A stretch of DNA of 64,000 nt, taken from Tetrapyrgos nigripes (Eukaryota; Basidiomycota; Agaricomycetes; Agaricales; Campanellaceae). The translations under genes and the position numbers were made by a program. The stretch lies in contig JAACJM010000365.1 in NCBI GenBank assembly GCA_013368315.1, positions 1 through 64,000 on the forward strand. Direction: 5' to 3'. This document shows, piece by piece, positions 28,809-63,603 of this stretch (its first letter is position 1; every line of letters begins with the position of its first letter). Below the pieces are notes generated by a model. It worked only from the letters and a program-made list of their open reading frames with translations, made no database searches and was not told where the DNA came from.

Positions 28809-28999
28809 TGTAACGGCTGTTACTATTCTTAGACGATTATATCATACTTTCCCGCGGGTCCTAGATATAAGTAGCTTCGAGTAGATTCCTTCGTTAACTC
28901 TTACTCTCACCACGCCTTACCTGTCTTGTACATAGCAGCGGTAAATAAAAGCCCTGTCTTGTGTATTGAGGCCTTAGGCATTGAGATACGTGAGTTACA
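28809..28999 (+). repeat. Gypsy-1 5' LTR
   Basis: 191 bp, TGTAAC...GTTACA ends. It includes taaataaaagcc near 28950, a possible polyadenylation signal. Confidence 0.92.
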
Positions 29000-29218
29000 C
29001 ATTTTTTACACAACAGTCTTACCCCTGCTACTCTTTTCTGCTTCATCCTCGCCGTCTACCCACCACAAACCCGCTCTATTCCCCATTCGAACCCGACTCT
29101 ACCCAACACGTCTCAAAAACACACCCGCAAAACCTCACAGCAAGCTCAGAAGGCTTCCGAGGAACTCCCTTACCATCATCACTCACCTTCCCCACCTACT
29201 TCGCACACTACCCGCATC

Positions 29219-29407
29219 ATGTCCCATACCATCACCCAACATCCTAAGTCTAACGCTCAGGCGTCGTCATCATTGAAGACGACTATGCCGAGCCATATCC
29301 CCAGACCGGTAGCTAAACCTTTGAGTAGCGGCCAGTTCTCGGGAGTACATAGCACTTTTAATAACACAAATGTTAATACTTCTACTCCTCTACCAGGTCC
29401 TCTCTGA
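29219..29407 (+). CDS. Gypsy-1 short 5' ORF overlapping pol
   Basis: A 62-aa ORF (MSHTITQHPKSNAQ...STPLPGPL) begins about 220 bp after the 5' LTR and overlaps the start of the pol frame by 38 bp, in a different frame. It has no Gag features (no capsid-like sequence or zinc knuckle). It may be the stump of a deleted gag, or the leader from which pol is reached by frameshifting. Confidence 0.35.
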   Translation: MSHTITQHPKSNAQASSSLKTTMPSHIPRPVAKPLSSGQFSGVHSTFNNTNVNTSTPLPGPL

Positions 29408-32400: not shown

Positions 32401-32561
32401 ACAAAGTTCTATTTGAGGTCTGGTGGTCCCTAGGAGATGTTACTTTTGAGCCTTGGAGCACAGTGAGCCGATTGAAGGCCATGGATGATTACTTTGCGTT
32501 ACATGGCGTAACACGTTGGCAGGATTTACCAAAAGGTAATTTCAAATTACCTGCCAAATAG
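29370..32561 (+). CDS. pol: Gypsy-1 pol: RT, RNase H, integrase, chromodomain
   Basis: A 1063-aa open frame. Reverse transcriptase spans about residues 60-250, with CIPKKDGKLRTTVDC and the catalytic YLDD at 192-195. RNase H follows (ICDASVSGIGAMYGQ, FETETLAILEAL, TDHQALEFF). The integrase has the HHCC finger (GHEIVGHF...CRTCELCHRSK) and the DDE core (MDFIGPFPEV; VSDRDPKF; HPQTDGATERANR). A C-terminal chromodomain-like segment ends it (FVESIRGHKWDKNKVLFEVW; FEPWSTV). No aspartic protease precedes RT. The true start codon is uncertain; homology begins near residue 18. All catalytic residues visible are intact. Confidence 0.9.
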   Translation: MLILLLLYQVLSDILGGVPEKLPPMREVNHSIPLIDPNKRYRYYMPRCPDSLRGQLADKINRYLRAQWWEPRAVSQAAPMLCIPKKDGKLRTTVDCRERNANTVKDVTPLPDQENIRMRVAAAPFRSKIDLSDAYEQVRIIPEDVEKTAFATPMGTFVSNTMQQGDTNAPSTFQRLMNTIFRDYIGVFMHVYLDDIFVFSNTIEEHEYHLGLVFKRLREQQLYLKWTKVELYADVLDCLGHKIDDRGLHADSDKLERIRGWRQPRNYNDVQKFLGLVNYLQHFLPDVSSWTTPLSEMSRNAQPFFWRPIHDVSFQNIKDLCCRVPILRPVDPSKPEPIWVICDASVSGIGAMYGQGPTWQTCRPAGFMSKKFTDAQRNYRVFETETLAILEALLKWEDKLIGYPIHVVTDHQALEFFKTQKKLSSRQMRWMEYVSRFDFDITYVKGVTNRVADILSRYYESDTPNEKHSPNEYVNADVRIDKLCEDLPIGRKEEVLEMIEHFKAIRDAKDVKESRDLEAEQLEKAREPDLPEFTVPPTVNPILMDSRAKGPNLRSNFESDPTFLNEIRTQYESDILFKKIIEHPEDHPRFVYEKKSGLIWTTNLAGERVLCVPKSKLSDKSLRTIILEAGHEIVGHFGPQRTADYLRRWYWWPGIYGQSEKFCRTCELCHRSKTSNQAPSGKLHPLPIPTRPWESIGMDFIGPFPEVKGFNYLWVIICRLTNMVHLIPCHTSNTATDLSLVYMKEMIRLHGLPSSIVSDRDPKFTSIWWKEIHRLLGARLLMSTSFHPQTDGATERANRSIGQIFRVSIRADQKDWLTKVPIVEFAINASVSESTGFAPFELNYGYVPSMLFEPRSEETSLPGIRAYGIQAMQSLFDAHDAIIEARVFQTHKSNKRRSSEPVLKEGDKVYLSTKNLSLPKGRAKKLLPKFVGPYEIVGADPKSSTYKLNLPDELNKRRIHDRFHVSLLKPYFPNDELLFPNRSKVEPYDFGAPDNAEEFVESIRGHKWDKNKVLFEVWWSLGDVTFEPWSTVSRLKAMDDYFALHGVTRWQDLPKGNFKLPAK

Positions 32562-32607
32562 AGAATTTCCAAAAATCCATGGAACATCATGGAACGTACG
32601 GCGAAGG

Positions 32608-32615
32608 TATTTAAG
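32608..32615 (+). promoter_or_regulatory. Internal TATA-like box of Gypsy-1
   Basis: TATTTAAG lies 72 bp upstream of the ATG of the 707-aa ORF and 47 bp after the pol stop. The following pyrimidine-rich leader (cttgcgtttcctgtcactc) looks like a fungal transcription start region. Suggests a separate transcript. Confidence 0.45.
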
Positions 32616-32679
32616 CTACACCCGCCGTCTTGCGTTTCCTGTCACTCAACGACTTCTCCCCTCACGCTATCACTTCAAA

Positions 32680-34803: not shown

Positions 34804-35012
34804 ACTTGGGTTGGAGTATGCGGCACTGGTAGGAGAGCTGACCTTGTCACGATGGTCCCTGGGGACTGGACTAGAGGGTTAGAGTGGGTCATAGTATGTC
34901 AAAAAATTTATTTATTATTTTCCGTGATTCTTCTCTTCTAAGAACTTATATCTATTCAACTTCTATTGTTCTATATCGTTTCCTGATTAGTTTCTCGCGT
35001 ACGCTTCGTTCT

Positions 35013-35024
35013 AGAGGGGGAGGA
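35013..35024 (+). other. Gypsy-1 polypurine tract
   Basis: agagggggagga lies immediately before the TG of the 3' LTR, the expected position of the plus-strand primer. Confidence 0.8.
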
Positions 35025-35215
35025 TGTAACGGCTGTTACTATTCTTAGACGATTATATCATACTTTCCCGCGGGTCCTAGATATAAGTAGCTTCGAGTAG
35101 ATTCCTTCGTTAACTCTTACTCTCACCACGCCTTACCTGTCTTGTACATAGCAGCGGTAAATAAAAGCCCTGTCTTGTGTATTGAGGCCTTAGGCATTGA
35201 GATACGTGAGTTACA
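35025..35215 (+). repeat. Gypsy-1 3' LTR
   Basis: 191 bp, identical by eye to the 5' LTR, followed by the CCTAC target duplication. Confidence 0.92.
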
Positions 35216-35220
35216 CCTAC

Positions 35221-42163: not shown

Positions 42164-42333
42164 GATTTTTTACAGTTTTTTACATGCTAGAAATTCGACG
42201 TTATTTACATACAGCTTGTTATTTACAGATTGTGTTTTTTACAGTATTTTACATGTCATTAATATCTGACATAGACCCCTTACATTTTTTACAGTATGTC
42301 ATGGGTAGCTCCCCAATCCTCCTAGCTCCTACG

Positions 42334-42849
42334 TGTCACGAATCGCTCCCCGCCTATTCATTTCCTTTCTATTCTTTTTCCTTTACTATCTATTTCTCAC
42401 TCTAACCCCATAAACATCAATCATTTCTCATCATCGTCTATAGTTACCATCTCTCTAGATCTATGACTCACATTCTTATCTCCTCCGATTCCTATCTCCA
42501 TGGACATTCTCACTGTCAATCACTCCACATGATCCAGTACCTTCATCTATCCATATTTGACTCATTATTCTCTCGCCCTTGACATTTCCACATGATACCG
42601 TCTATTATTACTTACTCTTTCCCATCTGTTCATATTTTACTTATATACCTGTGATCCTTGTAACCTATTCCTTAGTTCGTTCACTTCGTCTCCGCTCCGT
42701 ACTTTTACTACGCAGTGTAGAGCCTAGTCAGCTTACTTTCTCTTTCTCTCTATCTCTCTCTCCCTCTTTCAACCAATTTATTATCTTGTAACTGGCGTTC
42801 TTGTATTGTGTGACTTGGGTGGTTATTGAGTGTACCGACAACCTTGACA
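42334..42849 (+). repeat. Gypsy-2 5' LTR
   Basis: 516 bp, strongly pyrimidine-biased on the plus strand, with a CTCTCT tract near 42740-42770. Confidence 0.95.
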
Positions 42850-42998
42850 CTTGAACGAACTCCCATACACCCACCTCACAATTCCCTCATCACACACTAT
42901 CCTTCACTCTGTCTACCCCACGCCCCCGAATTCGTATCGAACCTCCTGAAACTCCTCGCGACTACAAACGAATCCCATTTCCCCTTCCTCGTTACCTC

Positions 42999-44814
42999 TT
43001 GTACTCCGAATACTCGGTCTCTCATGGAAGAAAAATACGAACGGACCCCTGGAGCCTCGACCGACACTTTGTTTGCACAAGACGTTGGGTGTGGAAACTT
43101 ACCTCAGGTGACGTAGTCCTCTCGACATTCTCATACATAACAGTGAAAGAGGACTTCGATACAGGAGAAACTGTGGTTCAGATTAAAGGACCCCTATTCC
43201 TCAAAGAACACGTTGACTACTCTCCATCATCACCTTCCCCTGAATACGGTCTAGCATCCTCCTTCATCCTAGGACCCAATTACCTTTCTTGAAGTCAGTG
43301 TATGACTAGTTGACGAACTGCATCTGCAGACCCAAACCTCCACTGTGCCGACCGACCACACGTATTCCATCCTCCATCAGTTCGAGACGCCGCTTACTTC
43401 GTCGAAGACGTCAACGACCCTTGGACTCCGTGCACCGTACAACCTTGCTTAAACAGATATAACACTCAACGACTCACCGCCGAAGAAATTCCAAGTGGGT
43501 TACACATTATAACCCAACTCCAAGAACTCGCGATCCAAAAGGCACACCCGAAACCTAAACCTGCAACAGAATCGGAACAAGGAACTTCTACACCTGCTAA
43601 CCAGCCTTCCGAATCTAACCCAGTACCAGAAACCCCTCCCAATAACCCACCAGAACCAGACAATCCCACTTCCCCACCTCCTTCGCCCACCATTCCATCC
43701 GCCGAAGGACCATCCGTAGCCCCTCGTCGTCCTCCTACACCTCCTTCCCCAGATCCATCAGACCCAAACAACTCAGTCATGGCTGACACACCTCCTATCG
43801 GGTCGAATGGTACTTCCGAACGAGGAAGAAAACCAGACGCTTTCAATGGAGAACGTAGCGAGGCAAAAACAATGGCTGGCCCTGTTCAATAACTATCTAC
43901 GCATGAATAAAGGAAAGTACCCGACCGAGGAAAGTCAGGTTTCACTATTCCTATCATTCTTCACGGGAGAAAAAGGAGGAGATTGGGCAACGCAAAGATT
44001 GATAGAACGAGACGCAGAGGATGAGAACTTGGCGAGTACACCAGGCGAATGGAGATGGATAACTTTGAAACAGATACGTGATAGATTCAAAAAGGACTTC
44101 AAAGCTCTTGCCTCGGAAGATGTGGCGAGGACGAAGATCAAGTTTGCTAGAATGAAGGGGACGGATATTAGCAGCTACAACAGCATCTTCGATACATACG
44201 GAGAAGAATCCGAGTTTGGAGACGCGGCATTGTTGGAATTCTATCAGGATGGGTTACCACCCAAACTCCGAGAAGCAGTTGGAAGAACGTATCCGAAGTG
44301 GGATGACTTCGAGGAGTATAAGGAAAGAGCTGTGGAGCTTCATTTAGAGTGGCTGAAGGAACGAGAAAGACAAGGATGCTGGAAAACTACTTCAACGTCG
44401 AAGAGTAGTCCAGGTCCGTCTCAGGGGAGAACGGTAGCAAGCGTCAATGCGCTTATGGGACCAGGTGCTAACTCGTCTTTCAATCTACCACCTAAACTGA
44501 CACCTGATGAAAGGGACCAACTTCGAAAAGCAGGAGCGTGCTTCGTGTGTAGACAAACTGGACACATGAGCAACGAATGTCCGACATTCCCGAGGACATC
44601 ATCTCAGAACACCTCCCGAACCTTCCCCTCTCGTGCTATTCGAACAGCCGAAACCGCATCCCCACCACCGGTAACAGTAGCTCAGGCATCCTCGTCCAGA
44701 AACACGATCAAGGAAATCTCCGACATGGTTAACAGGGTCAAAGGACTAGAAGGAGAAGAAAAGGAACAAGCAACCGTCTATTTAAAAGACGTCATGTCTA
44801 AATTGGATTTTTGA
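42999..44814 (+). pseudogene. gag: Gypsy-2 gag
   Basis: Gag-like reading begins near 42999 (RHFVCTRRWVWKLTSGD; GPLFLKEHVDY). It continues in the same frame through TGA codons at 43290 and 43311, then DAAYFVEDVNDPW, a long Pro/Ser-rich stretch, and PDAFNGERSEAK. At about 43868-43872 the frame shifts by one base, consistent with an extra A, and continues as WLALFNNYLRMNKGKYP with the capsid-like FTGEKGGDW and FYQDGLPPKLREAVG. The zinc knuckle CFVCRQTGHMSNEC (CX2CX4HX4C) follows, and the stop is at 44812-44814. Whether the 43290-43313 segment is a tiny intron or two nonsense codons cannot be decided from one copy. Confidence 0.8.
44806..44814 (+). promoter_or_regulatory. Candidate -1 frameshift site between gag and pol
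   Basis: Gag ends GAT TTT TGA. The pol frame is -1 relative to gag and overlaps it by 4 bases. The run of five T before the stop would allow the TTT-decoding tRNA to slip back one base onto an identical codon. Confidence 0.4.
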
Positions 44815-47800
44815 ATCACTCCTCTGCTACATCGTCAGTAGGAGTAGAACAGTACACCGGACAGTTAAAGAACAATCGATATAGTGTGTTATACCCCTCT
44901 AGTGAGCGAGTCTTTCCTTCAGATATAAGAATGTCAGCAATCACTCGTAACAGACAGATACCATCAATCACACTCAAAACTGAATTAATCGGCAAATTTA
45001 CTGGCAGAAAAATCGACGCAAACGCTCTAATAGACAGCGGTGCAGAAGGCATAATTATCAATGGCCAATTTGCACAAAAACATCAACTCACCCTTCTTCC
45101 TATCAAAAACCTGTTCCCAGTCCGAAACGTCGACGGCTCCGAAAACACCATGGGATGGGTACGAGAATACACTATCCAAAATCTTCGTATCTATTCCCGA
45201 GACGGCGTAGCGTACTACGAAGAAAAGGCCGAGTTCTACGTAACGGACATCGGAGATCACGATATAATCCTCGGTACCGACTGGTTGGAAGAACATAATC
45301 CAGATATAGACTGGTCGGGCTCACGGGTAGACATGACTAGATGCCCAGAAACATGCATCACGGCAAAACCTCCCGTTCTCCATTTGAAAACTAAATCTTT
45401 GAAACCCGCAGTCGTCGATCCAAGGACCCACCACAAGGATTACCAAGTCAGATGGTTAGAACCAGTTGGACAATTCAAACCAGTTGCCCAACCAAAGATT
45501 GCAGGACGACGCCGTCGAACTCTTATTCGATCCTTCCACCGAAGTTCGGAGGTAACGGCGATCTTTACTGAAGACGATTATGGAAGAGATACAATCCCAG
45601 AACGATGGGAACAGGACGTAATGGAGGAATTGTTGGGGAAAGAAGAAAGAATAGATGAAGAGGCACCGGGGACACCAAACCTGAACATCCGCGTGGGGTT
45701 CACAAAAGCACAAGAACTCGCAGAGGCAGCTCAGAACGTCCAGGTCGACGTACCTCTTAAAGATAAGATTCCTTCGCAATATCATCAGTTCCTACAAGTC
45801 TTTGATAAACAAACCTCAGAACGATTACCGAAACGTGGCGAATGGGATCATGCTATCGAGCTAAAACCGGACTTTGAACCACGCCCCTGCAAAACGTACC
45901 CTTTATCCCCAAACAAACAGAAGGAACTCGATGAATTCGTCAAGGAAAACTTAGAGAAAGGATATATAAGACCGTCGAAGTCTCCTATGGCAAGTCCCTT
46001 CTTCTTTGTAAAAAAGAAAGACGGAAAACTACGACCAGTACAGGACTATCGTGCCCTGAACAAAGGGACCGTCAAAAACGAATACCCCCTACCGCTTATA
46101 TCGGAACTCGTAGACAAACTAAAAGGGGCGCGTATGTTTTCCAAAATCGACCTTAGATGGGGATACAACAATGTACGTATCAAGAAGGGAGATGAATGGA
46201 AAGCAGTGTTTAAAACCAACCACGGCCTCTTCGAACCAACGGTGATGTTTTTCGGTCTTATGAACTCTCCAGCTACATTCCAAGCAATGATGAACACTCT
46301 ATTCAAGGATCTGATCGACTCTGGAAAAGTCGTCATCTATATGGACGATATTCTCATATTCACAGAATCAGTAGAAGAACATCGATACATGGTGAAACAA
46401 GTGTTGGCACGACTCCATGATAACGACTTATATGCTAAACCAGAAAAATGCACCTTCGAAACTGATTCAGTGGAGTTCCTCGGCCTTATCGTTTCGCACA
46501 ACACATTGGCGATGGACCCAGTCAAGGTCGAGGGCGTGACCAAATGGCCAATCCCACGCAACGTCAAAGACGTACAGTCATTCCTCGGCTTTGGAAACTT
46601 TTACCGTCGTTTCATACGTGATTTCTCAAAAATTGCACGACCATTGTTCGATCTCACGAAAAAGGAATACCCATGGAAATGGTCCGAGGAAGCTCAAACG
46701 GCTTTCCAAGCACTCAAAGATACGTTCACGACTTCACCAGTCCTTCTCATGCCTGATCATTCTAAACCATACCGAGTAGAAGTTGATGCATCAGATTACG
46801 CTACGGGAGGTATCCTGCAACAACAAGGACCGGACGGTAAATGGCATCCAGTAGCCTACCTGTCAAAGGCCTTATCCGAAACGGAACGGAATTACGACAT
46901 CCACGATAAAGAACTACTAGCAATCATACATGGACTTGAAGCCTGGTGACACTACCTGGAAGGCGGACCACATACCATCGAAATCTTGACCGATCATGAC
47001 AACCTTAGATACTTCACCACTGCCCAGAAACTCAGCCGACGACAAGCAAGAATGGCCTTGTTTCTGACCAGATTCGACTTTATGCTCACGCACAAACCCG
47101 AGAATTTGAACCGAAGTGACCCACTCTCTCGGAGATCAGACCATAAAGAGGGGGTCGAAAACGACAACAAAGACAGGGTCTTACTTGATCCCAGATTCTT
47201 CAGAATTCGAGCGACACGGCCAGGAATGGTAACCGCAATAGGAGATGTAGAGTTGAAAAGACGGATCAAGGAATGTCCGAAAAAGGATGCTGAAGTCATA
47301 AGTGCATTACAAACCATCTTTAACAACGGACCACGCGCTTTGGCAAAAAATCTACAGGAATGGAACTACGAAGACGGAATCGTCTTGTTCAGAGGGAAGA
47401 TCTACATCCCAAACAATCAACAACTCAGACGGGACATCGTTAAAATGCATCACGACAGCCTTACTGCAGGACACCCGGGACGATTCAAAACATACGAACT
47501 CGTCAGTAGAGAGTTCTGGTGGCCCGGTATGTCAGTATTCATTCGTAATTATGTTGAAGGATGCACTACCTGTCAGTTAACCAAGGCAAACAACCACCTG
47601 ACGCATGTACCATTAATCCCGAACGAAATACCAGAACAACCCTTTGGTACCATTACAACCGACTTCATCACGGATCTGCCAGAATGTGACAGCTTCAATG
47701 CAATTCACGTCACAGTCAACCGTTCAACAAAAACAGTTGTCATTTCCCCATGCAGAAAAGATATCGATAGCAACGGAACAATTGACCTATTGTTCGACAA

Positions 47801-48920
47801 CACTTGGCGGCGGTATGGCTTGTGGGATAAAATGATATCTGACCGCGGACCTCAATTCGCAAGCCAAGTGATGAAAGGCATTTACGCTAAGTTAGGTATC
47901 ACTTCGGCACTCAGTACAGCTTATCATCCGCAGACAGACGGCGAGACAGAAAGGTTCAATCAAGAACTTGAACAATACCTTCGAACCTTTTGTAACTATT
48001 GTCAGGACGATTGGGTTAAATACCTGCCTTACGCTGAATTCTGTCACAACACCCGAATCCACTCAGCAACCGGGAAATCACCGTTCGAACTACTCCATGG
48101 ATATTTACCCCAACTCTTCCCTTCCATCAATCCGACTTCACACGTACCAAAAGTCGAAGAACGCCTCCAGAACTTGGATACTCTTCGAGAGGAACTAAAA
48201 GCAAGTCTGGCGACAGTGGCAGAACTGATGAAAGAACAAAACAAGGACTACACAAAGGAAGGGGTGAAATTTAAAGTTGGAGACAAAGTGTTGCTAGACG
48301 GGAAGAATTTGAAGACAACGAGGCCGAAAGCTAAGTTGGCAAATCGTCGTCACGGACCATTCGAAATCACTGACGTTATCAGCGAAGTCAATTACCGACT
48401 CAAATTACCGAATGGTTGGCGCATTCATCCAGTATTCCACGCTTCACTCCTATCGCCGTACAAAGAGACCGAAGCCCACGGAGTGAACTATCCAGGAGAA
48501 CCGGCTGAGTTACTCCCCGAAGACAACGAATACAATGTGGAAGCAATTCTAGATTCAAAACCAACGAGAAACCGCCGGGGAGTACAATACCTTGTCAAAT
48601 GGTTGGATTATGCTGACTCGGAAAATTCATGGGAACCAGCGTCAGGATTGACAAAGGTGAAGGAGATGATTGAAACCTTCCATCAACAACATCCAGATGC
48701 ATATCGACCCAAGAACCTGATACGCCCTGGAACAACAGTGCGTTCACTAGGAATCGCCATGGAAGACATATGGCGAAGTACCCGTGTGCTTCAAGCGAAA
48801 GCACAACTCCGAGGAGAGACACTGTTACGGACCGTTGGTATTCTATGTCCTCCTTCGCACTCCACTCGGCAATCGAATTCGAACTTCTGTCATCATTCAT
48901 CAATCGCATTCCCTCACTAA
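44811..48920 (+). pseudogene. pol: Gypsy-2 pol: PR, RT, RNase H, integrase, chromodomain
   Basis: Two same-frame halves (44811-46949 and 46950-48920) are separated by one TGA at 46947-46949, exactly where LEAW-R-HYLEG is expected. Protease: ALIDSGAEGIIING. RT: KKDGKLRPVQDYRALN and the catalytic YMDD (VIYMDDILIFT). RNase H: EVDASDYATGG and YDIHDKELLAI. Integrase: HHCC finger (HHDSLTAGHPG...CTTCQLTK) and DDE core (TTDFITDLPE; SDRGPQFAS; DGETERFNQE). Chromodomain: YNVEAILDSKPTRNRRGVQY and LVKWLDYADSENSWEP, which in this family directs integration to modified chromatin. Apart from the nonsense codon every catalytic residue I can see is present. Confidence 0.9.
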
Positions 48921-48973
48921 CGGCGTCTACTATCAAACCCATCCCCGGATGTGCGTTCATACCGTACACCCAA

Positions 48974-48989
48974 CCAATAACTATAAAAG
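48974..48989 (+). promoter_or_regulatory. CCAAT and TATA-like boxes of the Gypsy-2 3' ORF
   Basis: CCAAT (48974-48978) is followed closely by TATAAAAG (48982-48989), 82 bp upstream of the ATG at 49071. Suggests a dedicated transcript for the small ORF. Confidence 0.5.
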
Positions 48990-49070
48990 ACCCCTTTCCA
49001 AGACAGAGAACTACAGAACAACATCCATCACTACCAGCCAAACACCACTTATCACACTCCTACTATCACA

Positions 49071-49586
49071 ATGTCGACCACTTCCTCCACCGACACTATC
49101 GTCCAAAACGCACACCCGACCAACAGAGGGCGCTGCACCTACGGGAAGCACTCAGGACGTCAATGCCAACTTTCAAAACAGCACACAGGACCTCACAACG
49201 GATGTCAACGCTGCACATGGGGGGGAGAGGATGGACCAGGGCGATGTAGATTGGGTAGAGGACATCAAGCTCGATGTGTAGTTCAGTGGACATCTCTACG
49301 AGCAGAGCACAAAGGGAACTTGGGATGGGGAGACAGCAGTATATGGGGCGCACATAGCACCGTACAGTACGATGCGACTGACAATGGAGGGGGCTGGGGT
49401 ACGGCAACCAACATGACGGAGTGGGGGAACATAGACTGGAACGATCCCAGGTGGGATGTTACAAACTACACCATTGAATGGGACAAATACTGGCCGAGTC
49501 AGGGAGATGTGGACAGGCGGCTTCGCAAACAATGGGCGAAGCACTGGAAAACGAGCCTGACGAGCTCCGGTGAAAGCTCGTCCTAA
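49071..49586 (+). CDS. Gypsy-2 3' ORF: Cys/His cluster plus WG/GW-rich protein
   Basis: A 171-aa ORF inside the element, ending just before the polypurine tract. The N-terminal part has C22, H27, C32, H38, H42, C45 and C48 (RCTYGKHSGRQCQL; KQHTGPHNGCQRCTWG), a plausible zinc-binding cluster. The remainder is Trp-rich (12 Trp), with five WG steps (TWG, GWG, IWG, GGWG, EWG) and further acidic-Trp contexts (DWN, RWD, EWDK). WG/GW-rich disordered regions are known Argonaute-binding hooks in eukaryotes and in some plant-virus silencing suppressors; a similar role here is only a hypothesis. The tail is basic (RRLRKQWAKHWK). It has no membrane segment or signal peptide. I know no named family. Confidence 0.65.
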   Translation: MSTTSSTDTIVQNAHPTNRGRCTYGKHSGRQCQLSKQHTGPHNGCQRCTWGGEDGPGRCRLGRGHQARCVVQWTSLRAEHKGNLGWGDSSIWGAHSTVQYDATDNGGGWGTATNMTEWGNIDWNDPRWDVTNYTIEWDKYWPSQGDVDRRLRKQWAKHWKTSLTSSGESSS

Positions 49587-49597
49587 AGAGGGGGTAA
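49585..49597 (+). other. Gypsy-2 polypurine tract
   Basis: aaagagggggtaa precedes the TG of the 3' LTR. Confidence 0.75.
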
Positions 49598-50113
49598 TGT
49601 CACGAATCGCTCCCCGCCTATTCATTTCCTTTCTATTCTTTTTCCTTTACTATCTATTTCTCACTCTAACCCCATAAACATCAATCATTTCTCATCATCG
49701 TCTATAGTTACCATCTCTCTAGATCTATGACTCACATTCTTATCTCCTCCGATTCCTATCTCCATGGACATTCTCACTGTCAATCACTCCACATGATCCA
49801 GTACCTTCATCTATCCATATTTGACTCATTATTCTCTCGCCCTTGACATTTCCACATGATACCGTCTATTATTACTTACTCTTTCCCATCTGTTCATATT
49901 TTACTTATATACCTGTGATCCTTGTAACCTATTCCTTAGTTCGTTCACTTCGTCTCCGCTCCGTACTTTTACTACGCAGTGTAGAGCCTAGTCAGCTTAC
50001 TTTCTCTTTCTCTCTATCTCTCTCTCCCTCTTTCAACCAATTTATTATCTTGTAACTGGCGTTCTTGTATTGTGTGACTTGGGTGGTTATTGAGTGTACC
50101 GACAACCTTGACA
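49598..50113 (+). repeat. Gypsy-2 3' LTR
   Basis: 516 bp, identical by eye to the 5' LTR, followed by the CTACG target duplication. Confidence 0.95.
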
Positions 50114-50118
50114 CTACG

Positions 50119-51292
50119 CTCCTTAGACTACTACTACTCCTTTTAGTATTCTTATAAATACTTGTATATTTCATAGTAGTTCTTTAGCCTTATCAACTCT
50201 TTTCTCTATGCCTTTATTCATGGCCTAAGGCACCTCGCTATATGAGTCTATCTACGGTTCTCGAGACTCTTAGCCTGGTCCCTTACAGTTTGATAAGGCT
50301 ACAAACTGCCTGGTGCACTATTTCCTTCTGTGCTCCCTCAGCCTTTGTCCTCTGGCTGTAAAACCTCTGAACACTCTCCTGCTCCCTGTGTGTTCTTCTA
50401 TGCGCTGTCACTCCTTCGTTCATCTCTAGTGCTTCCTTCTTCTTTCACTCCTCGGAACACTTTGCCGATTGATACACACATTCAGACTTACCCCTTTCGG
50501 ACCATTGGCACTCGTCGTTATTCCTTTCTTTCGTCACTATCACCATCTCGACGCTCTACCCTCTTGACGCTCATAACAGTTGCTGCCTGTCATTCATAAA
50601 GTTTCTCTGACTTTTATTCACCTCCCCAACACTTTCCTTGCCCTTCTCTAATTCTCTCATCACTCGGCATACTCCCCAGTCTCTGGCCATGTCAATTACC
50701 CCTATCCAACTCTTCTGCTTCGCTTTTTCATCATTTACCGCTCTCTCACTACCCTCTCTAACGATTCCAAGTTCTTCACCGATTTGATTCGAATTTAGCG
50801 TTTTTGCGTTCTCACACTGTCAACACGCTGTTTCTTCACTCTAATAATTGATATTTGACTTTCCATCGCTTCAATTGCCGCCAGCAATCCAAAAATCTTC
50901 GAATCCTTCCTTCATCCATCTCCTTCAACAACAGATTTTCCAACTTCCTGGCCCTGTCATACACTTAACCCCTATCTCCGTTCAACTCTTCACCACCTTT
51001 TCCTTGTCGGCTTCCTTTTTGATGTTCGACACGTAACCCTCTCACCTTTGAGGTATGTGAAGCGTGTTGCATCATCGCCAACTCTTCTATCCTTCTTGGA
51101 ACTTCAGCTCTCACCATTATCGGCTCTTACTCATCATCACCATCGACTCTTTCTCATTGCCAACTTCAATTGTCATTCACTCCCACCCTCTCGCTGTCAC
51201 TTGCACCCTCCCTCACTCATGATCTCAGCTCTTCATTCGCAAAACTCCAGTCTTGACACTTCATCAAATCCACTCTTAAACCGTCGTGAATT
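50119..51292. other. Pyrimidine-rich region without a recognisable gene
   Basis: Strong C/T bias on the plus strand and many short ORFs rich in Ser, Leu and Pro, as expected by chance. It was contiguous with the region left of 42333 before Gypsy-2 inserted. It may include old repeat debris. Confidence 0.4.
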
Positions 51293-51690
51293 TGTTGAAA
51301 TATATACCTTCCATGTATAGTAACTATGATTCCATATGGAGTTATTATGAAACTTCTATGTAGCTATAAGTATGCTAGTCCTTCAGGACATTCTCCAGAC
51401 ATTACTCTTATCTTCTACTATGTAGTGATATCTCTGTAGATAGCAATATGACCAATGGCAATATCCTCTTAGTCTCTAGGTATGTCCATGGACAATGTAG
51501 ATATTAGTAATTACATGCTCTTTATATAGTATAAAAGCTCTCTGTAAAGTCGTAGATACTACAGAACAATATCCAGTTCTATCTGCTCTACAAGCAACTC
51601 GTATCTAAGCTCTACTAGCTTTCTACTCAGCACTCTATTTGGTGAGCTCTATTGACTGGTCACCTACGCTGAATATTTGCTGCTTCATTA
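51293..51690 (+). repeat. Copia-2 5' LTR
   Basis: TG start, ends ...cttcatta just before the primer site. It contains TATAAAAG at 51530-51537, the likely promoter TATA box. Confidence 0.9.
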
Positions 51691-51706
51691 GGTTATGGGC
51701 CCCGAG
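51691..51706 (+). other. Copia-2 primer-binding site (iMet half-tRNA type)
   Basis: GGTTATGGGCCCCGAG begins directly after the LTR. GGTTATGGGCCC is the exact complement of the initiator tRNA-Met anticodon region GGGCCCATAACC, the primer type known for Drosophila copia. Downstream, 51710-52515 is an untranslated leader without a clear ORF. Confidence 0.8.
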
Positions 51707-52515
51707 GGCCATCGATGCTGGTCTTATCCCATACAACTACCGTTGTCAAGATGGATCGCGAGCTCATCACTGAGTAAGCTGTCGGACTCGATGATTGTGC
51801 AGTTGGTAGATCGATGTTTCGCTTTATCTCCTTCTTCCTCTATATTGCCCGGTAAAATATATAACCTGGGTTCAGTTTAGAGTCGCATTAGGCACTCTTT
51901 GCTGGTTTAGTTATAGGTCTAGATAAGTCACTTTATACCTGTAACAGTTCTTTGTGGAACCCTTATGGATCTACAGATAATTGTATGCAGAGTGACTGGC
52001 ACACTTTGCAGCCTCCACTTTAGTGTGGGACTGTTTTTCGCACTCAGGCAAAACTCCATAGTCATTCAGATGAGCCAGGGGCGTTTATAAAAGTCGCCAA
52101 TCTAGATCTATAGAAAAACAGTAGTTAGATAGTGCTCCCCTATATGCTTTAAGGCATCTCTACACCCATTAGGAAGTACTGTGCCACTATGGTCAATATT
52201 GCAACTTCTAGAGTAATCATGTGCTCTCTGTCAAGAGTATGGTCTTTGACAGTGTGAAATTGATTGAGAAGCACTGATGAAGAAGTTAATATAGGATTCC
52301 ATTATGTGCATGTACTGACAAACAGTTTTCTACTGGCATATAGTTGATTAATGCAAATGTATTATGTACATTCCTTGTCTGGGGTGTTTGCTCAGAAAGG
52401 AGAAGGAATATTGCGATCATCCTATACACTGTGGTGTATTAGACCCTTCGATGTTCCTTGGTACTTGTGACCTATTGAATGCACATCTTTACTGATTGAT
52501 GCTTCATAGATCAAT

Positions 52516-54150
52516 ATGTCTTCCAACAACGCTATCAATAACTCTAAAAGCATCTTCAACGTTCCCATCCTCAATACTACCAATTATGAGTTTTGGAACT
52601 ATGCTATCACCCGCCTCCTTGAAGCCAAAGGGCTTAGCAGGGTTGCTTCAGGTACCCAGAAGTGTTATGTGAACACAAGTCCCACTGAAACAGGTAATGC
52701 ACCTTCTTTTCCTGAAGGATTTGTACAAGTTTCTGATGAAGTTTTTAATGCTTTAACTGAATCCGAACAATCGTCTCATAACCAAATTATTGATACCTTC
52801 GCTCATGAATGGGATCAATATCAAATTTTGGTTAAAAAACACGATCAGGAATTAGTTGAAACTTATAAGCTTCATAGTTCTTGGGATGACAAAGATGAAC
52901 AGGCTTTAGGTTTTATTTCCTCCTATCTTCCAAATGATGTGGGTTTGGAAATGAGAGAGTTCACTAGAGATGAAATAGAAGAAGACCCTTGTGCCAAAGC
53001 AAAAGGAGATTATACCACAAAAATGCTTTGGGATAAAATAGACAAGAAATATAGTTCTCCTGGCCTGACATCATGGTTCTTAGACTTCAAAGAGTTCATG
53101 TCTTGGACACTTGATGAGAAGAAAGATCCTGCAAACCAGATCGCATCTCTGGGAGCAGTTCTCACACGTCTTAAAGCCTATGGATTCACAGTCGATGACA
53201 AGTTTAGAGCTCTTTTCTTGATGGATCACATTCCGCAATCCTGGGGAAACTATGCTCAATTCACACTTGCCACAATCGAACCAAAGAACCTGACTATGGC
53301 ACATGTGGAAGGACTTATTCTCGTCGAGTACAAACGACGGACTGGTCAATCTTCTGAATCATCTCTTCTTACCCGCATTACTGGAGATAGACGAAAGTTT
53401 GATTCTGCACCCAATTGGAACAACCAGAAGGCTGGATCTTCTAAACAGAAGAACCAAGACAAGGGTAAGGGTAAACAACCCAAACCTCAGGAACCTTCTA
53501 AAACTGTTACAACAGGTGATGTGAATCAAGGGGGAGATAAGAAGAAGAAAACTCATCGCAGTAAGAAGAAGGGTTCCAAAAAAGGTGCTGCTAATTTAGC
53601 TAATCCAGAAGTCGAAGCTGATTCAGATTCTGATGATGATGCTCCTTTAATGGTAACCGCTTTTATGGCAAATCCTTTTATAAATGCCACATTAGATCCT
53701 ATCGAAATCAGTGACACTGATGATCTACCGGAGACATGTGAGCAACCCTTTTATGAACTTCTTCCCTATCATAACTTTCTGATTGTTCGATCAGATTGCT
53801 TTATAGACAAGAATAATGATTCTTCTTTGAAGGAAAGAGTAAAGCGGAACTTAGCTAAACAGGTCAGACCACAAACGATTTCGGGTTACTTCATTCTTAC
53901 TCATTATGAGAGACTCATGATCAATGAACTCGCACAGGAGACAGTTGATTTTGAAAGCTTTCTCAGGGTAGAAGCTCGTCATCAAATGACCTGTAAGCTA
54001 GCCGAAATTTGGGATTATACATACAATTCTGATGGCACTCATACAGAACCTTATCTTTGAGCAAAAGAGCATCTTAATGGTGACGAAGACATGACAAACC
54101 AATGGTTTGATCATGAAGGAACTATCCATCCCATTCAGAAGCAAATCGAG
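52516..54150 (+). pseudogene. gag: Copia-2 gag
   Basis: A 514-aa ORF from ATG 52516 (MSSNNAINNSKSIFNVPILN; TTNYEFWNYAITRLLEAKGL) with the UBN2-like Gag region WDKIDKKYSSPGLTSWFLDF and a highly basic stretch (KGKGKQPKP; KKKKTHRSKKKGSKKG) in place of a zinc knuckle. It stops at TGA 54058-54060, but coding-like sequence continues in the same frame (AKEHLNGDEDMTNQWF) to about 54150. The TGA is therefore probably a mutated Arg codon. Confidence 0.8.
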
Positions 54151-54179
54151 GAAGAGGTGAGTATTTCTGCTGTTATATC

Positions 54180-56728
54180 ATGAATAAAGCTTTGTCTGAT
54201 ATACACAACCATAAATGGATTGCACAGCAGATTAAAAAACGTGAGCCAGTCCCTTCAAAGCCTCCTTCTTTGATTGAAAGAGCTTACTGGCCTACTCCTG
54301 CTCAATCTGTTATGCACACAAATGGTATTACAATCAACACTCAATTTCATGATACATTGCTATATCCTGATTTTATTCGCACTCTACCTTTTAATCATAC
54401 CAAAGCGTCATCGTTGTCTTCAAGTAGAAAGCGAAAGGCTGTTCGAGGTTCGTCTTCTTCTGAATTATCAGATTCTACATCTTCAGATCATAGCAAAGAA
54501 AGTTCCTTTAAATATATTCCTCTGAGTGTTGCATTCAAAATGTGGCAAGACAGAATGTCTCACATGTTCACAGATCCAATCCTCGAGAATATGAAAAGAG
54601 AACCTGATGAATCTGGAAACACTTTGAAGAAACCTCGCTATGATGCTCCTTTAGAAGAAGAAGCTGGTCCCTCATCTCTGGCAGATGCTATCAATGTTTC
54701 CATTTCATCTGGATATCTTGCCGATGATGACAGTGTCAGTCTTGGTTCAGAATCAGATGTGGAAATTTATATTGATGGAGACGAAACTATGGCTTTCTGG
54801 CAAGTATTTCACACCTCTAATAAAAATAGTGCACTCATACAATTGCCTCAGATCTCAATGTCGTCGGACTATTGTGAATCTCATACAGCCCTAGCGGCTA
54901 TAGACAATTGTACTATTATTACAAATGATGTGCCTGTATTTATTTGTGAACAAAGTTTTGTTGCTTGTGCACATTGCTCAACATGTGAAAAGTATCCGTT
55001 GAATAGTATTTGTAAGAGTAAGATCACTGATGAAATAACCTATTGGGTTTCAGATTCGGGTGCATTGACTCACATTACAAACAATTTAATGGATTTTGCT
55101 CAGTACCATAAGTTACCCAATCCGATTCCACTTCAGATTGCTGATAAAAGATCTGAAACTTACCTTGAAGGTGTTGGAACTGTGTTCATTGAACATATCA
55201 ATGAAGAAGGTGTCAAACATACTATAAAACTATACCCAGTGTTTTATCAACCAACTTGCACACATTGTTTGTTGTCTCGAGGATGTATTCTTCATGAAGG
55301 ATACTATGAAATCTCATGAGATGGCAAGTCCGAGTTTCAGAAAGAAGTAGATCAAAGTATTCTGATGACATTATTACCAATGCATCGGAAAGACAATTTG
55401 CATTGGCTCAAATCAAAGATAATCATTCCTGAGTCAGCAAATCTATCATCTACTCCTACTGATTATGACATCGTGCATAACCGCTATGGACATGCTGGAA
55501 AGGCAGTGGAAAGTCATATCATAAAGAATACTAAAGGCTTGAAACCTTTTAAAGTACCTAAACATAGTGTATGTCAAGGCTGTGCTTTAGGCAAGACTCC
55601 ATCAAAATCTTATCCTTTATCAGAAAGCGAGCTACAGAAGTATTAGAACTTGTGCATACAGATGTGAAACAACAACCATCTATATCATATCACAAGTACA
55701 AGTATTTCGTTGTCTTTCTTGATGACTTTAGTTCTTTCCCTGTAACCTTCCTTTTAGTTAGGAAATCTGATGTCTTTAAGTCTTTCAAGATGTATGTTGC
55801 CTGGGCAGAACAGTCTACTGGCAAAAAACTAAAGACTTTACGATCAGATTTGGGAACAGAGTTTATGAACAAAGATTTTGATAACCTTCTTGCTGAAAAA
55901 GGCATTAGACGACAAAAGTCAGCTCCATACATACATCAACAGAATGGTCGTGCTAAGAGAATAATTAGAACACTCAACGAGAAGTCAGAATCCATGCGCC
56001 ATCATGCAAATGGACCTCCTTCTTGGTGGGAATTTTCTCTTGCCACAGCTACTTTTGTAGCATGTCGCACACCAACAAAACAACTCAACTGGAAGACTCC
56101 TTTTGAATTGTGGTACAAAAAGAAACCAGATGTATCTTACTTCTGTTCTTGGGGATGCGCTGCATATGTATTCATTCCAGAAAAGAAAAGAGTAAACAAA
56201 CTCTCCCCAAAATCGGAATTAATGATCTTTGTTGGTTACGAAAAAGATTCTAAAGCCTGGTTATTCATGAGACGTGACAATTCACTCTTTGTTAGTCCAC
56301 AAGCACTCTTCATTGAGAAATGGTTTCCACGAGTCTTATCATCTGAAACAGAAGAAAGCGATAAATCCACCAAACCTATCCAACCTTCTGAATTAATGCA
56401 CAGTTTGCACAAACAGGGTACAAATAATCTCCCACCTGACCCTGTAGTACCCCTCGATTTAGATGACCTGTTCTGAGATCAATTTGATGATCAGGGTCCA
56501 CCACCCGATGAAGGTAACGATGATCATCAAATTATTGATGATGGAAATGGTTCGGATGCTAGTTCCGAAGACCATGATCCTGGTGCACACCAACCTTCTG
56601 ATCCAAATGACTCCAAAACAGAATCTATACAATCTCGTGAACCGACTCCACCACCTGCACCAGAACCACCTGCTCAAGTACCTGCTGATCCTGTACCTGT
56701 ACAAGGTCCTCAACCAGTTAATCCATGA
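54180..56728 (+). pseudogene. pol: Copia-2 protease and integrase
   Basis: The first frame (54180-55319, then past a TGA to 55646) holds the protease motif VSDSGALTHI and the GAG-pre-integrase NRYGHAGKAVE...CQGCALGK. A one-base shift near 55630 leads to the integrase frame (55571-56476) with D (LVHTDV), D (LRSDLGTEF) and QNGRAKRIIRTLN. The third catalytic residue, normally Glu in the AER motif, is Lys (55955-55957). The frame continues past a TGA at 56474 through an acidic Pro/Asp-rich linker to another TGA at 56726. Confidence 0.85.
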
Positions 56729-56836
56729 AACGTCGATTTAACTACTGGTAGATTTATAAATAGAGAACCTAATCCAAATCAAACTAGATCTTCAGATTGT
56801 CAATCTAGACCAAATTGGAGAATTACAGATCCAAAC

Positions 56837-58816
56837 ATGCAACACAGTAGAGACATACCACGAGGTGGATGGACTAGAGTAACTCGTTCTCAATCTCGTG
56901 CTACTGATTCGCAAACAGTTACAGATCCAACTCCATCAACTTCTCAAGTCAGAGAAGAGAGTGACAATGAAGATCAATCTGAAATAGAACCAGGACCTAG
57001 TGGAGAAATTGTGGAGTTTCTTGAACAAGATGTTTTAGAACAACGTGTTCAACAAGGGGGAGTATGGTTACAAAATTATCTCTTATCGCAGGCATTTGTA
57101 GATAATAAACAAGGAAGTTCCTCTGCAACACCTCTGTTTATTCACAATACTCCTATTGCTTTAGTGGATAAATATCCATATCATCATGATACCAATAGAG
57201 ATCCAGATCCAAAAAATAAAAGAGATAAAATTACAAAAGATCTGATAGACTATTGGGAGAATAAGACCTTCGTGCAGCACTGGACATCAACAAATGATTT
57301 CAGGAATGCTCCAAAGGATCTTAAAAAGCAATGGGAAGAAGCTTGTCAGTATGAGATTGATCAATTGAAAAAACGAAATGTCTTTGAATTGGTAGATCTT
57401 CCCAAAGGTCATAAACCAGTCAGATGTCGTTGGGTATTCAATATTAAATCAAACAAAACAAAATGTGCACGACTTGTTGCAAAGGGTTTTTCCCAGACAG
57501 AAGGAATTGATTATAACAATGTATTCAGTCCAGTAGTCTGCTTCGAAACGGTTAGACTGTTACTTGCCATTGCTGCTATAGAGAATTGGGAGATCAAGGC
57601 ACTAGACGTCAAAAGTGCTTTTCTCTATGGACTTCTTGACAAAGAAATCTATATGACACAGCCTGATGGCTTTGTTAGTCAGGACAGAAGCAAGGTTTGG
57701 AGGTTACGCAAGGCACTTTATGGTCTGAAACAAGCAAGCTTAGCCTGGTGGACTGAATGCACAAAATATATGCAATCTTTAGGCTTTAAGCGCTTACATT
57801 CAGATGCCGGCGTATATATCTATTGTATGAATGGCAAAACCATAATAGCCATCATATATGTAGACGATGTGTTATGGATGGGTTCAGATCTGAAATTATT
57901 AAACAGATTGATGAATCAATTCATGGCTAAATGGGAATCTCATGATCTCAGAGATGCAAAGGAATTTTTGGGCATGTGCATAGAACGTGATCGAAAGAAG
58001 AGTATTCTTACTCTCGATCAAGAAGACTATTTGAATAAAGTCATCAAACGTTTTGGTGCTGAGAATATGAAGCACACAATGACGCCTATGCCACAGTCAT
58101 ATATTCCTTTAGCACACGATGGTAATGTTGATACCAAAGTTAGAACTTTGTTCCAACAAGTGATTGGCTCGATTCTTTATCTTATGCTTGGTACTCGACC
58201 TGATATAGCTTTTGCTGTTATCAAGCTATCAACATACTCAGCAAATCCCTCGCCAGATCATCTGAAGAAAGCTATGTATATCATAAGATACTTGCTTTCT
58301 ACGAAACATTATAGACTTATCTATGATGGATCTAAATCTAGTGGTCTTATAGGTTTTTGTGATAGTGACTGGGCACAAGATCGAGATAATTGTCATTCAC
58401 AAACTGGCTTTATATTTGAGCTTGCACAGGGCTCAATTTGCTGGTCTAGTCGAAAACAAAAAACTGTTGCATTGTCCTCCACTGAAGCCGAGTACATGGC
58501 ACTTTGTGAATGTGCGAAACAGGCTCTATGGATTAAAACTCTATTAAAAGAAATCGGTTTTAAATTGAATCATGTTCCTATTGTTGGTGACAATCAAGGC
58601 TCGATCTTTATTAGTCAAAATCCTATCACTGAATCAAGATCGAAGCATATTGATATACGTTACCATTTTATAAGAGAACTGATTCAGGAGTCTAAAAAGA
58701 TCCAACTCTATTTTACTCCTGGAAACGAAAATCGTGCAGACCTTCTAATGAAGAATCTTGGACACATTAAGTTTCTTAAATTCCGAAATGAGTTAGGACT
58801 ATTCTTTGATTCTTAA
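56837..58816 (+). CDS. pol: Copia-2 reverse transcriptase and RNase H
   Basis: A 659-aa ORF in the same frame as the integrase part. The first 130 residues are a charged linker. RT_Copia signatures follow: WEEACQYEIDQLKKRNVFEL, RCRWVFNIKSNK, ARLVAKGFSQTEGIDY, DVKSAFLYGLLDKEIYM, LYGLKQA and the catalytic IYVDD. RNase H has GFCDSDWAQDRDNCHSQTG, SSRKQKTVALSSTEAEYMAL, DNQGSIFISQNP and RSKHIDIRYHF. No stop or frameshift lies within this half, so RT could still be active if translated. Confidence 0.88.
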   Translation: MQHSRDIPRGGWTRVTRSQSRATDSQTVTDPTPSTSQVREESDNEDQSEIEPGPSGEIVEFLEQDVLEQRVQQGGVWLQNYLLSQAFVDNKQGSSSATPLFIHNTPIALVDKYPYHHDTNRDPDPKNKRDKITKDLIDYWENKTFVQHWTSTNDFRNAPKDLKKQWEEACQYEIDQLKKRNVFELVDLPKGHKPVRCRWVFNIKSNKTKCARLVAKGFSQTEGIDYNNVFSPVVCFETVRLLLAIAAIENWEIKALDVKSAFLYGLLDKEIYMTQPDGFVSQDRSKVWRLRKALYGLKQASLAWWTECTKYMQSLGFKRLHSDAGVYIYCMNGKTIIAIIYVDDVLWMGSDLKLLNRLMNQFMAKWESHDLRDAKEFLGMCIERDRKKSILTLDQEDYLNKVIKRFGAENMKHTMTPMPQSYIPLAHDGNVDTKVRTLFQQVIGSILYLMLGTRPDIAFAVIKLSTYSANPSPDHLKKAMYIIRYLLSTKHYRLIYDGSKSSGLIGFCDSDWAQDRDNCHSQTGFIFELAQGSICWSSRKQKTVALSSTEAEYMALCECAKQALWIKTLLKEIGFKLNHVPIVGDNQGSIFISQNPITESRSKHIDIRYHFIRELIQESKKIQLYFTPGNENRADLLMKNLGHIKFLKFRNELGLFFDS

Positions 58817-58951
58817 ATATACTTATGGGTTGGAAACAACCGTCAAGATTTTCAGAGTGGATACTATTCGCATTTCATTATGTTTATGCTCATGCAAGAA
58901 TCATTTAATCCTTGATGTGCACTTACAATGCTGCACTTAAGTCCGCATCTA

Positions 58952-58964
58952 AAGTGAGGGGGAG
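58952..58964 (+). other. Copia-2 polypurine tract
   Basis: aagtgagggggag directly precedes the 3' LTR. Confidence 0.8.
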
Positions 58965-59364
58965 TGTTGAAATATATACCTTCCATGTATAGTAACTTTG
59001 ATTCTATATGGAGTTATTATGAAACTTCTATGTAGCTATAAGTATGCTAGTCCTCCAGGACATTCTCCAGACATTACTCTTATCTTCTACTATGTAGTGA
59101 TATCTCTGTAGATAGCAATATGGCCAATGGCAATATCCTCTTAGTCTCTAGGTATGTCCATGGACAATGTAGATATTAGTAATTACATGCTCTTTATCTA
59201 GTATAAAAAGCTCTCTGTAAAGTCGTAGATACTACAGAACAATATCCAGTTCTATCTGCTCTACAAGCAACTCGTATCCAAGCTCTACAAGCTTTCTACT
59301 CAGCCCTCTATTTGGTGAGCTCTACTGACTGGTCACCCTACACTGAATATTTGTTGCTTCATTA
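58965..59364 (+). repeat. Copia-2 3' LTR
   Basis: About 400 bp, matches the 5' LTR at about 97%, TATAAAAA-type box conserved near 59203. Confidence 0.9.
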
Positions 59365-59375
59365 GCTGCGATATC

Positions 59376-60071
59376 TTGGAGGACCATTTGCTCAAACTCC
59401 TAATCGACAAACTCACTCTTCCATCTCTGACCACCTTGGCTATCACAACTTTTCACACAGAGGTGGACAAATGGAATACCATGGAACGAATGTTCAAAGG
59501 CAACTGGCCACACCAGTCTTTTTCAGATTTTTCCCAGCGCTCGGCGTGCTCATTATCGGCGCTTCACCTTGACTATATCTCGCTATCCGACACTGACCTG
59601 TGCTCGCTGCTGAAGCTCCAGCCTTTCCTGGTAGAGCTTCGCGTCAGAGAAATTCGCCGCAAAGATTACAACTTTGCACGGTATACATTTGACGACCGCA
59701 CTGTCTTTCAATTCCAGGACCTCATCACTCCTTTACTGCTCACGACTCTTCATGCCTTTGATCGTGGTTTGGCCTCATCCTCTCCTCTAGTTCCCAAGCT
59801 AGAGAATTTACACTTTGCCGCGGACGGCGATTTATTTGACGACGTGCTATTCTGGAAGATGGTTGTGTCGAGATGGGTTCCCAACAGTGACGCTGGCAGC
59901 CGCAGAGAGAACGCGTCCGCATCGGCTACTGGGGTAAGCTGTTTGCGGTCGGTGAAGCTTTGCGTTTTGGGTAGAGCGCTTCGAGAAGATGTGGATTTGA
60001 AATTGCGACATCTGAAGAAGGCCGGACTCGATTTTGCGTTGCTGTCGAATGAGATAGAGAATGAAAGATGA
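59376..60071 (+). pseudogene. F-box/LRR-like protein, 3' fragment 1
   Basis: A 231-aa frame with Leu-rich repeats (LIDKLTLPSLTTLAI; LQPFLVELRVREI; LLLTTLHAFD; LVPKLENLHFAADGDLFDDV) and the ending ...SCLRSVKLCVLGRALREDVDL. This is the C-terminal pattern of Agaricomycete F-box/LRR proteins (ubiquitin-ligase adaptors). The F-box and N-terminus are missing. Copia-2 ends 11 bp upstream, so the insertion or later recombination removed the 5' part. It is nearly identical to 62842-63603. Confidence 0.65.
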
Positions 60072-62841: not shown

Positions 62842-63603
62842 TTGCCGTTCTCGTGCAATGACCTCGATCACTTCCGTCTCTCCATCTCTCCACGGTGGAG
62901 TTCCAGATGTCGGTTGAACTACAGGCGCCGGGGAATCTCGCACAACCATTTTCTCAAACTCCTAATCGACAAACTCACCCTTCCATCTCTGACCACCTTG
63001 GCTATCAGAAATATGCACGTAGGGGTGGACGAACGTTTCGTGTTACGAATGTTTAAAGGCACCTGGTCACACCAGACATTTGTAGATTTTTTCCAGCGCT
63101 CAGCGTGCTCATTATCGACTCTTCGCCTTGACCATATCTCCCTACCCGACACTGACCTCTGCTCGCTGCTGAAGTTCCAGCCTTCCCTGGTAGAGCTTCG
63201 TGTCAGAGAAATTCGCCGCAAAGATTACGACTTTGCACTATTTCCATTTGAAGATGGCACTGTTTTTCAATTCCAGGACCTCATCACTCCATTACTCCTC
63301 ACGACTCTTCATGCCTTTGATCATGGTTTGGTGTCATTCTCTCCTCTAGTTCCCAAGCTAGAGAATTTACACTTTGCCGCGGACGGCGATTTATTTGACG
63401 ACGTGCTATTCTGGAAGATGGTCGTGTCGAGATGGGTTCCCGACACCGGCAAAGAGAACGCGTCGGCTACTGGGGTAAGCTGTTTGCGGTCAGTGAAGCT
63501 TTGCGTTTTGGGTAGAGGGCTTCGAGAAGATGTGGATTTGAAATTGCGACATCTGAAGAAGGCTGGACTTGATTTTGTGTTGCTGTCGAAAGATGAACAA
63601 TGA
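62842..63603 (+). pseudogene. F-box/LRR-like protein, 3' fragment 2
   Basis: A 253-aa open frame starting without an ATG (TTG at 62842). Downstream of HNHFLKLLIDKLTLPSLTTL it parallels fragment 1 to the end (LRHLKKAGLDFVLLSKDEQ, stop at 63601-63603). It has a short in-frame deletion relative to fragment 1 after WVPDTG. Upstream sequence does not supply an F-box, so this is also a 5'-truncated copy, or its first exons lie in unrecognised sequence. Similarity to fragment 1 extends into the 3' flank (ttgacccgtcttttcgtcac). Confidence 0.6.

Follow-up and report, generated by a model that had tools for sequence, protein, structure and literature searches.

A selected accessory gene with a conserved Cys/His head and WG steps in a chromodomain Gypsy lineage of Tetrapyrgos nigripes

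The P1 protein of sweet potato mild mottle virus is described as a silencing suppressor with three essential WG/GW motifs, which bind AGO1 (PMC2904775). In the basidiomycete Cryptococcus, the genes linked to RNAi are reported to include GWO1, coding for a GW182-like protein, and GWC1, coding for a GW/WG protein (PMC4778953). Among transposon products, the VANC anti-silencing proteins of VANDAL elements bind sequence-specifically to the non-coding regions of their own elements (PMC10398659). An orchid Gypsy element contains an ORF for an AlkB m6A demethylase, proposed as an aid against host control (PMC9289625), and the extra TET/JBP ORF of fungal DNA transposons was likewise proposed to help against host control (PMC12730594). 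A figure legend in a survey of fungal chromodomain Gypsy elements gives an “add. ORF,” the function of which is stated there to be unknown (PMC2864245). For LTR retrotransposons, ORF3 is described as typically forming a transcriptional unit apart, expressed from spliced messages (PMC5408684). Both extra ORFs in LTR elements and transposon anti-silencing are already known. To our knowledge, the question of dedicated anti-RNA-silencing proteins of retrotransposons, comparable to those of many viruses, is largely open for fungi.

The window analyzed here, a 64,000-nt stretch of contig JAACJM010000365.1 of the agaric Tetrapyrgos nigripes, contains a 7.8 kb Gypsy element that is complete in outline and carries an additional ORF, designated ORF3 (Table 1). 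The CCHC gag, the RT-RH-IN order, the C-terminal chromodomain, the LTRs, the 5-bp target-site duplication and the polypurine tract assign this element to the chromodomain Gypsy group (chromoviruses). The identity of the two LTRs suggests a recent insertion. The protease-like region of pol scores below the Pfam cut-offs. Despite the identical LTRs, the pol frame is interrupted by an in-frame TGA (46947-46949) in its RNase H part, while in several other copies the frame around the C-terminus of pol runs for 1372 aa without interruption. At 44795-44820, gag ends in GATTTTTGA and is overlapped over a few bases by the pol frame, which lies in another frame; the overlap at this T-run suggests frameshift or reinitiation.

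Table 1. Features of the chromodomain Gypsy element and its accessory ORF3 (positions in the window).
Feature	Position	Strand	Remarks
Target-site duplication, 5' of element	42329-42333		CTACG
5' LTR	42334-42849	+	516 bp, TGTCA...TGACA ends, same sequence as 3' LTR
gag ORF	43807-44814	+	335 aa, CCHC zinc knuckle (PF00098, E 2e-5); Retrotrans_gag weak (E 0.057)
pol part 1	44811-46949	+	Protease-like region, reverse transcriptase and beginning of RNase H, up to an in-frame TGA
pol part 2	46986-48920	+	Same frame; remaining RNase H, integrase, SH3-like, chromodomain (PF17921, PF00665, PF24626, PF00385)
Conserved non-coding block	48921-48940	+	Directly after pol stop; possible upstream promoter element
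CCAAT	48974-48978	+	In 1 of 27 copies scored
TATAAAAG	48982-48989	+	Resembles a TATA box; 27 of 28 copies have TATAAA(A/G)
ACAGAAC	49013-49019	+	Probable site of transcription start, conserved; first T of TATA lies 31 nt upstream
Accessory ORF3	49071-49586	+	171 aa, ATG to TAA; at least 151 protein matches in the genome
Cys/His domain of ORF3	49134-49277	+	Residues 22-69; two C-x9/10-C-x5-H-x3-H/C units and extra C45
WG platform of ORF3	49314-49496	+	Residues 82-142, W-rich, acidic; WG at 86, 92, 109, 118
Polypurine tract	49585-49594	+	AAAGAGGGGG, adjoining ORF3 stop; present, with up to 2 mismatches, in all 46 copies with context
3' LTR	49598-50113	+	Identical to 5' LTR over 516 bp
Target-site duplication, 3' of element	50114-50118		CTACG

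The window also contains two further probable elements and a pair of paralogous ORFs. A probable second Gypsy element (28809-35216) is enclosed by 192-nt direct repeats that are 100% identical; its RT-RH-IN ORF (29370-32561) begins a short distance from the first repeat, with, downstream of it, a 707-aa ORF (32680-34803) without a Pfam match, which could represent a gag located after pol or another accessory ORF. A probable Copia-type element (51293-59337) is marked by direct repeats of 97-98% identity, about 7.67 kb apart, around ORFs that include RVT_2. Two tandem paralogous ORFs (59376-60071 and 62842-63603) are 89-95% identical in DNA over parts, and the first of them has no Pfam match.

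ORF3, originally predicted as a 171-aa ORF between pol and the 3' LTR, is intact in this place, with pol ending at 48920 and the LTR beginning at 49598. In addition to the protein matches (Table 1), a DNA search of the T. nigripes genome with ORF3 returned at least 40 matches of 80-100% identity, and further copies encode products 53-64% identical to the protein of copy L079. In 45 of the 46 distinct copies with context the C-terminus of pol lies upstream, and the polypurine tract and LTR start follow downstream in all 46. Conversely, 118 of 129 pol C-termini (81-100% identical) are followed by ORF3 within about 0.5 kb, as counted by eye among the matches listed; the 11 without a listed ORF3 may reflect under-listing. 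ORF3 is a real accessory gene, belonging to the chromodomain-Gypsy lineage in this fungus. Internal stops in the listed ORF3 copies are mostly TGA, with few TAG or TAA, the pattern that methylation-type damage, through C-to-T changes in CGA codons, would leave.

The selective regime was estimated from 33 of 51 distinct copies, the 18 others being truncated, frame-broken or stop-bearing, and their omission can lower dN slightly. The pooled dN/dS of the intact copies is 0.186 (codon bootstrap 0.143-0.237), a value drawn from one genome and from pairwise comparisons that are not independent. By residues, the ratio is 0.11 at 20-72, 0.10 at 73-94, 0.22 at 95-142 and 0.21 at 143-171. In 22 ungapped copies the true frame has a dN/dS of 0.14 vs. 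1.70 and 1.22 in the +1 and +2 frames; the reverse frames yield 1.76, 0.21 and 1.59 with many stops, and the one with 0.21 shares its third positions with the true frame. Divergence at the three codon positions is 0.09/0.10/0.28, compared to 0.26 in the spacer. Over one set of 28 copies, dN/dS is 0.093 for the integrase-chromodomain part and 0.155 for ORF3, with a Jukes-Cantor (JC) divergence of 0.32 in the spacer; ORF3 is constrained, somewhat less than the integrase. Homologues that evolve neutrally or lack the WG motifs had been named as the outcome contradicting the original prediction, and within this genome they do neither (dN/dS 0.19).

The N-terminal head of ORF3 carries a net charge of +7. 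The original prediction placed a seven-residue Cys/His cluster at residues 22-48, and all seven residues (C22, H27, C32, H38, H42, C45, and C48) are present in the window copy; H27, however, is kept in only 9% of the 33 copies, and the cluster as a unit gives way to nine conserved residues distributed over positions 22-69. These residues, C22, C32, H38, H42, C45, C48, C59, H65, and C69, are each conserved in 97-100% of the copies and occur all together in 31 of 33, while H80 is invariant. They form two similar units, C-x9-C-x5-H-x3-H and C-x10-C-x5-H-x3-C, neither of which matches the spacing of the CCHC zinc knuckle (C-x2-C-x4-H-x4-C).

The 12 Trp and five WG steps (W50, W86, W92, W109, and W118) predicted for ORF3 are present; four of the steps lie in the W-rich part, and W50 sits in the Cys/His region. 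Among the 33 intact copies, the WG pair is retained at 50 in 33, at 86 in 32, at 92 in 33, at 109 in 32, and at 118 in 31, and 29 copies have all five; taken singly, each WG residue is at least 97% conserved. The third bases of the Gly codons vary at 92, 109, and 118, and this silent variation indicates that the protein is what is kept. Of the Trp residues without a following Gly, W73, W123, W128, and W137 are conserved in 82-88% of copies, W141 in 94%, and both W155 and W159 in 100%. The sequences contain 5-9 WG and GW dipeptides vs. 2.1-3.2 expected by shuffling, with P of 0.0007-0.045 in each of 13 sequences, which were picked from 34 and are not independent. Residues 95-142 carry a net charge of −6 and six Trp, and the C-terminal tail with its two invariant Trp is basic (net +3). 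AlphaFold modeling of ORF3, the Trp-bearing region of which had been called disordered-looking in the original prediction, yielded an uninformative model from a 19-row alignment (mean pLDDT 34).

A second ORF3 subfamily occupies at least about 73 places in the T. nigripes genome, as counted by eye from a search with the protein P0001. Four of its copies were inspected; one (L088) contains a stop, and the three intact 171-aa frames were aligned. Across 159 aligned residues, their identity to the protein in the window is 43, 47, and 46%. All nine Cys/His residues and the WG steps at 86, 92, 109, and 118 are retained in all three, while large indels separate the WG steps, one extra WG is present, the WG at position 50 is replaced by W-P and H80 is not kept. 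This conservation defines the core of ORF3 as the head with its nine residues together with four WG steps, and it agrees, within this genome, with the expectation that homologues preserve both motifs: the nine Cys/His residues and the four WG steps located in the W-rich part persist at 43-47% identity. The retention of WG Trp while the intervening sequence diverges, a trait of Argonaute hooks, is seen at 86, 92, 109, and 118 in this genome.

P0001 is the T. nigripes gene model D9758_002048, the first exon of which corresponds to the C-terminal half of a second-subfamily ORF3, WG steps included. Its exons lie in order at G000:C10 with 99% identity over residues 82-194 and 93% over residues 2-92, both in the genome from which the window comes; P0001 is a paralogous copy, and its status as an independent homologue is ruled out. 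In the model (G000:C10:628819-629887), the ORF3 half is fused with an exon of a Tc1-like transposase. Compared against 5.8 billion proteins, a single ORF3 protein gave no match at E 0.01, a 19-row ORF3 profile found P0001 alone (E 4e-9), and residues 1-83 of P0001 as a query returned P0001 itself and nothing else. For the ORF3 protein of the window, Pfam gave no match even with E allowed to reach 10, and across 19 ORF3 members only InlJ_IG, in eight of them (best E 0.043); with no Pfam family for ORF3, no curated Argonaute-hook model was matched either. The PDB search gave no match. A phage source (two matches at E 9-10), a viral-contig source (39 pattern matches, none confirmed) and a prokaryotic-virus source (scattered PHROGs, best E 0.12) received no support. 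The protein, Pfam, PDB, PHROG, phage and IMG/VR searches revealed no ORF3 relatives outside the T. nigripes genome; repeats are frequently omitted from gene catalogues, and a lack of matches in protein databases therefore carries little weight.

The 150-nt spacer between pol and ORF3 was analyzed in 28 of the 33 intact copies, five having too little upstream sequence. Its best-conserved 14-nt segment (mean 0.95, P 0.001 by column shuffling) falls in the block directly following pol; a 14-nt core of this block has no other match on the + strand of 42301-50200 with up to three mismatches. CCAAT and TATAAAAG, the two promoter boxes predicted upstream of ORF3, are present together 82-97 nt before the ATG in the window copy. 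The TATA element withstands comparison between copies, while CCAAT, found in a single scored copy (the 28th copy, without TATA, was not scored), is rejected as a promoter box. The conservation of the TATA block 48982-48995 (0.93) is modestly significant when taken alone (P 0.037). The distance from TATA to an ACAGAAC-like sequence is 30-33 nt in 26 of the 28 copies and exactly 31 in 22, the ATG follows TATA by 78-99 nt across copies, and no upstream ATG occurs between 49013 and 49071. In four divergent copies, the element at −90 to −92 reads TATAAAAG in three; the remaining copy has GATAAAAA. The two most diverged window-type copies examined, L086 and L087, lack TATA[AT]A; the former keeps GGACAGAACA and the latter has TTTAAAAGG. 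Judging from this arrangement, ORF3 most likely has an internal promoter with a start near 49013, inside the interval 48990-49071 where the original prediction requires a transcript to begin.

Taken together, these features allow an explanation that we advance tentatively, with confidence well short of even. ORF3 would most likely be transcribed from its own TATA promoter in the post-pol spacer, and its transcript would end in the 3' LTR. The N-terminal head, putatively zinc-binding, would be suited to nucleic acid by its positive charge, and the acidic WG platform would most likely dock on a host protein that has pockets for tryptophan. Argonaute is the foremost candidate for this partner, so that the element may blunt or redirect the small-RNA silencing of its host. 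The genome contains 21 Piwi-domain matches on 10 contigs and 26 RdRP matches on eight contigs, the contigs being counted by eye among the matches listed, which makes such silencing a plausible pressure on the element. An element-tethered protein that captures Argonaute might be expected to look like this, with a basic Cys/His head linked to a WG platform of drifting spacing. W155 and W159, fully conserved without a following Gly, and W141, kept in 94%, count against the hook reading, as do the W-P at position 50 of the second subfamily, the missing Pfam hook match and the lack of relatives in the searches beyond this genome, and docking on Argonaute itself is possible rather than probable. Similarly doubtful, if conceivable, is the full picture of an Argonaute-hook protein with an internal promoter, tethered through its head to element RNA or DNA, that would act as a WG-type silencing suppressor in two deeply diverged subfamilies (at least about 150 and 70 places).

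Transcription activators, too, can have segments that are acidic and rich in Trp, and ORF3 could be a self-encoded regulator of transcription or chromatin, a live alternative that we rate little below docking on Argonaute. By analogy with VANC, the head would bind LTR or leader DNA, while the acidic Trp segment would recruit the transcription machinery or remove silent chromatin. The charge of the head would fit such a role, as would residues 95-142, since an acidic, Trp-rich make-up of this kind is activation-domain-like. The Gly after each platform Trp, however, is kept as strictly as the Trp itself, and an activation domain would not need it. A precedent for a regulator of this type is provided by VANC (PMC10398659).

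Less probable still is a role as an RNA or particle helper, nucleocapsid-like or involved in packaging or assembly together with Gag and element RNA, in which the WG steps would dock on Gag or another element protein. The basic Cys/His head, the basic tail with its invariant Trp and the linkage of ORF3 to one pol lineage are consistent with this role; however, Gag already has a CCHC knuckle, which the Cys/His spacing of ORF3 does not reproduce, and one would hardly expect a structural protein to have a promoter of its own. The position after pol is that of env, and LTR-element ORF3s typically arise from spliced messages (PMC5408684), yet we consider it highly improbable that ORF3 is env-like and made from a spliced transcript of the LTR: no long hydrophobic segment is visible by eye in ORF3, and the window copy offers one GTRNGT donor (43495) in the leader 42851-43806 and one CTRAY branch-like site, located 87-97 nt before the YAG at 49004 and 49014. 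For this copy a spliced origin of the ORF3 message is, on these signals, the less favored option. Finally, although TGG-GGN codons make G-runs and ORF3 adjoins the polypurine tract, a chance or non-coding frame is rejected by the dN/dS, the frame controls and the codon-position rates, and constraint on the G-runs as DNA or RNA by the variable third bases of the Gly codons.

The ORF3 family represents a small, selected and abundant gene, and its four WG Trp, nine Cys/His residues and candidate start site allow the anti-silencing question raised by the Argonaute reading to be put to a direct test. Should the partner prove to be another protein, it would still be unusual for a fungal Gypsy lineage to have a conserved accessory gene with what looks like an internal TATA promoter, because LTR-element ORF3s are described as typically coming from spliced messages (PMC5408684). 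A WG/GW protein of a fungal retrotransposon was not found in a search of open-licence papers, and PMC3411680 yielded nothing on such a protein; within that literature, the Cys/His-plus-WG accessory family of fungal Gypsy elements appears to be new.

Compared to the known systems, ORF3 combines traits found in several of them. The “add. ORF” of the fungal chromodomain Gypsy survey could be its counterpart or not, the relevant part of the survey giving no sequence or selection analysis from which homology could be told (PMC2864245). The AlkB (PMC9289625) and TET/JBP (PMC12730594) proteins are captured enzymes with known domains, whereas ORF3 has no recognized domain. Like ORF3, VANC is transposon-encoded, and it acts against host silencing; it differs in belonging to plant elements, and the two are set side by side by description (PMC10398659). 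GWO1 and GWC1 resemble ORF3 as basidiomycete GW/WG proteins linked to RNAi; they are likened to it by description and, unlike the element-borne ORF3, are host factors (PMC4778953). With P1, ORF3 shares a few WG/GW motifs in a context rich in Ala, Ser, Glu, Asn, and Asp as well as a Cys-rich N-terminal region; the motifs of P1 bind AGO1, while ORF3 is likened to it by composition (PMC2904775).
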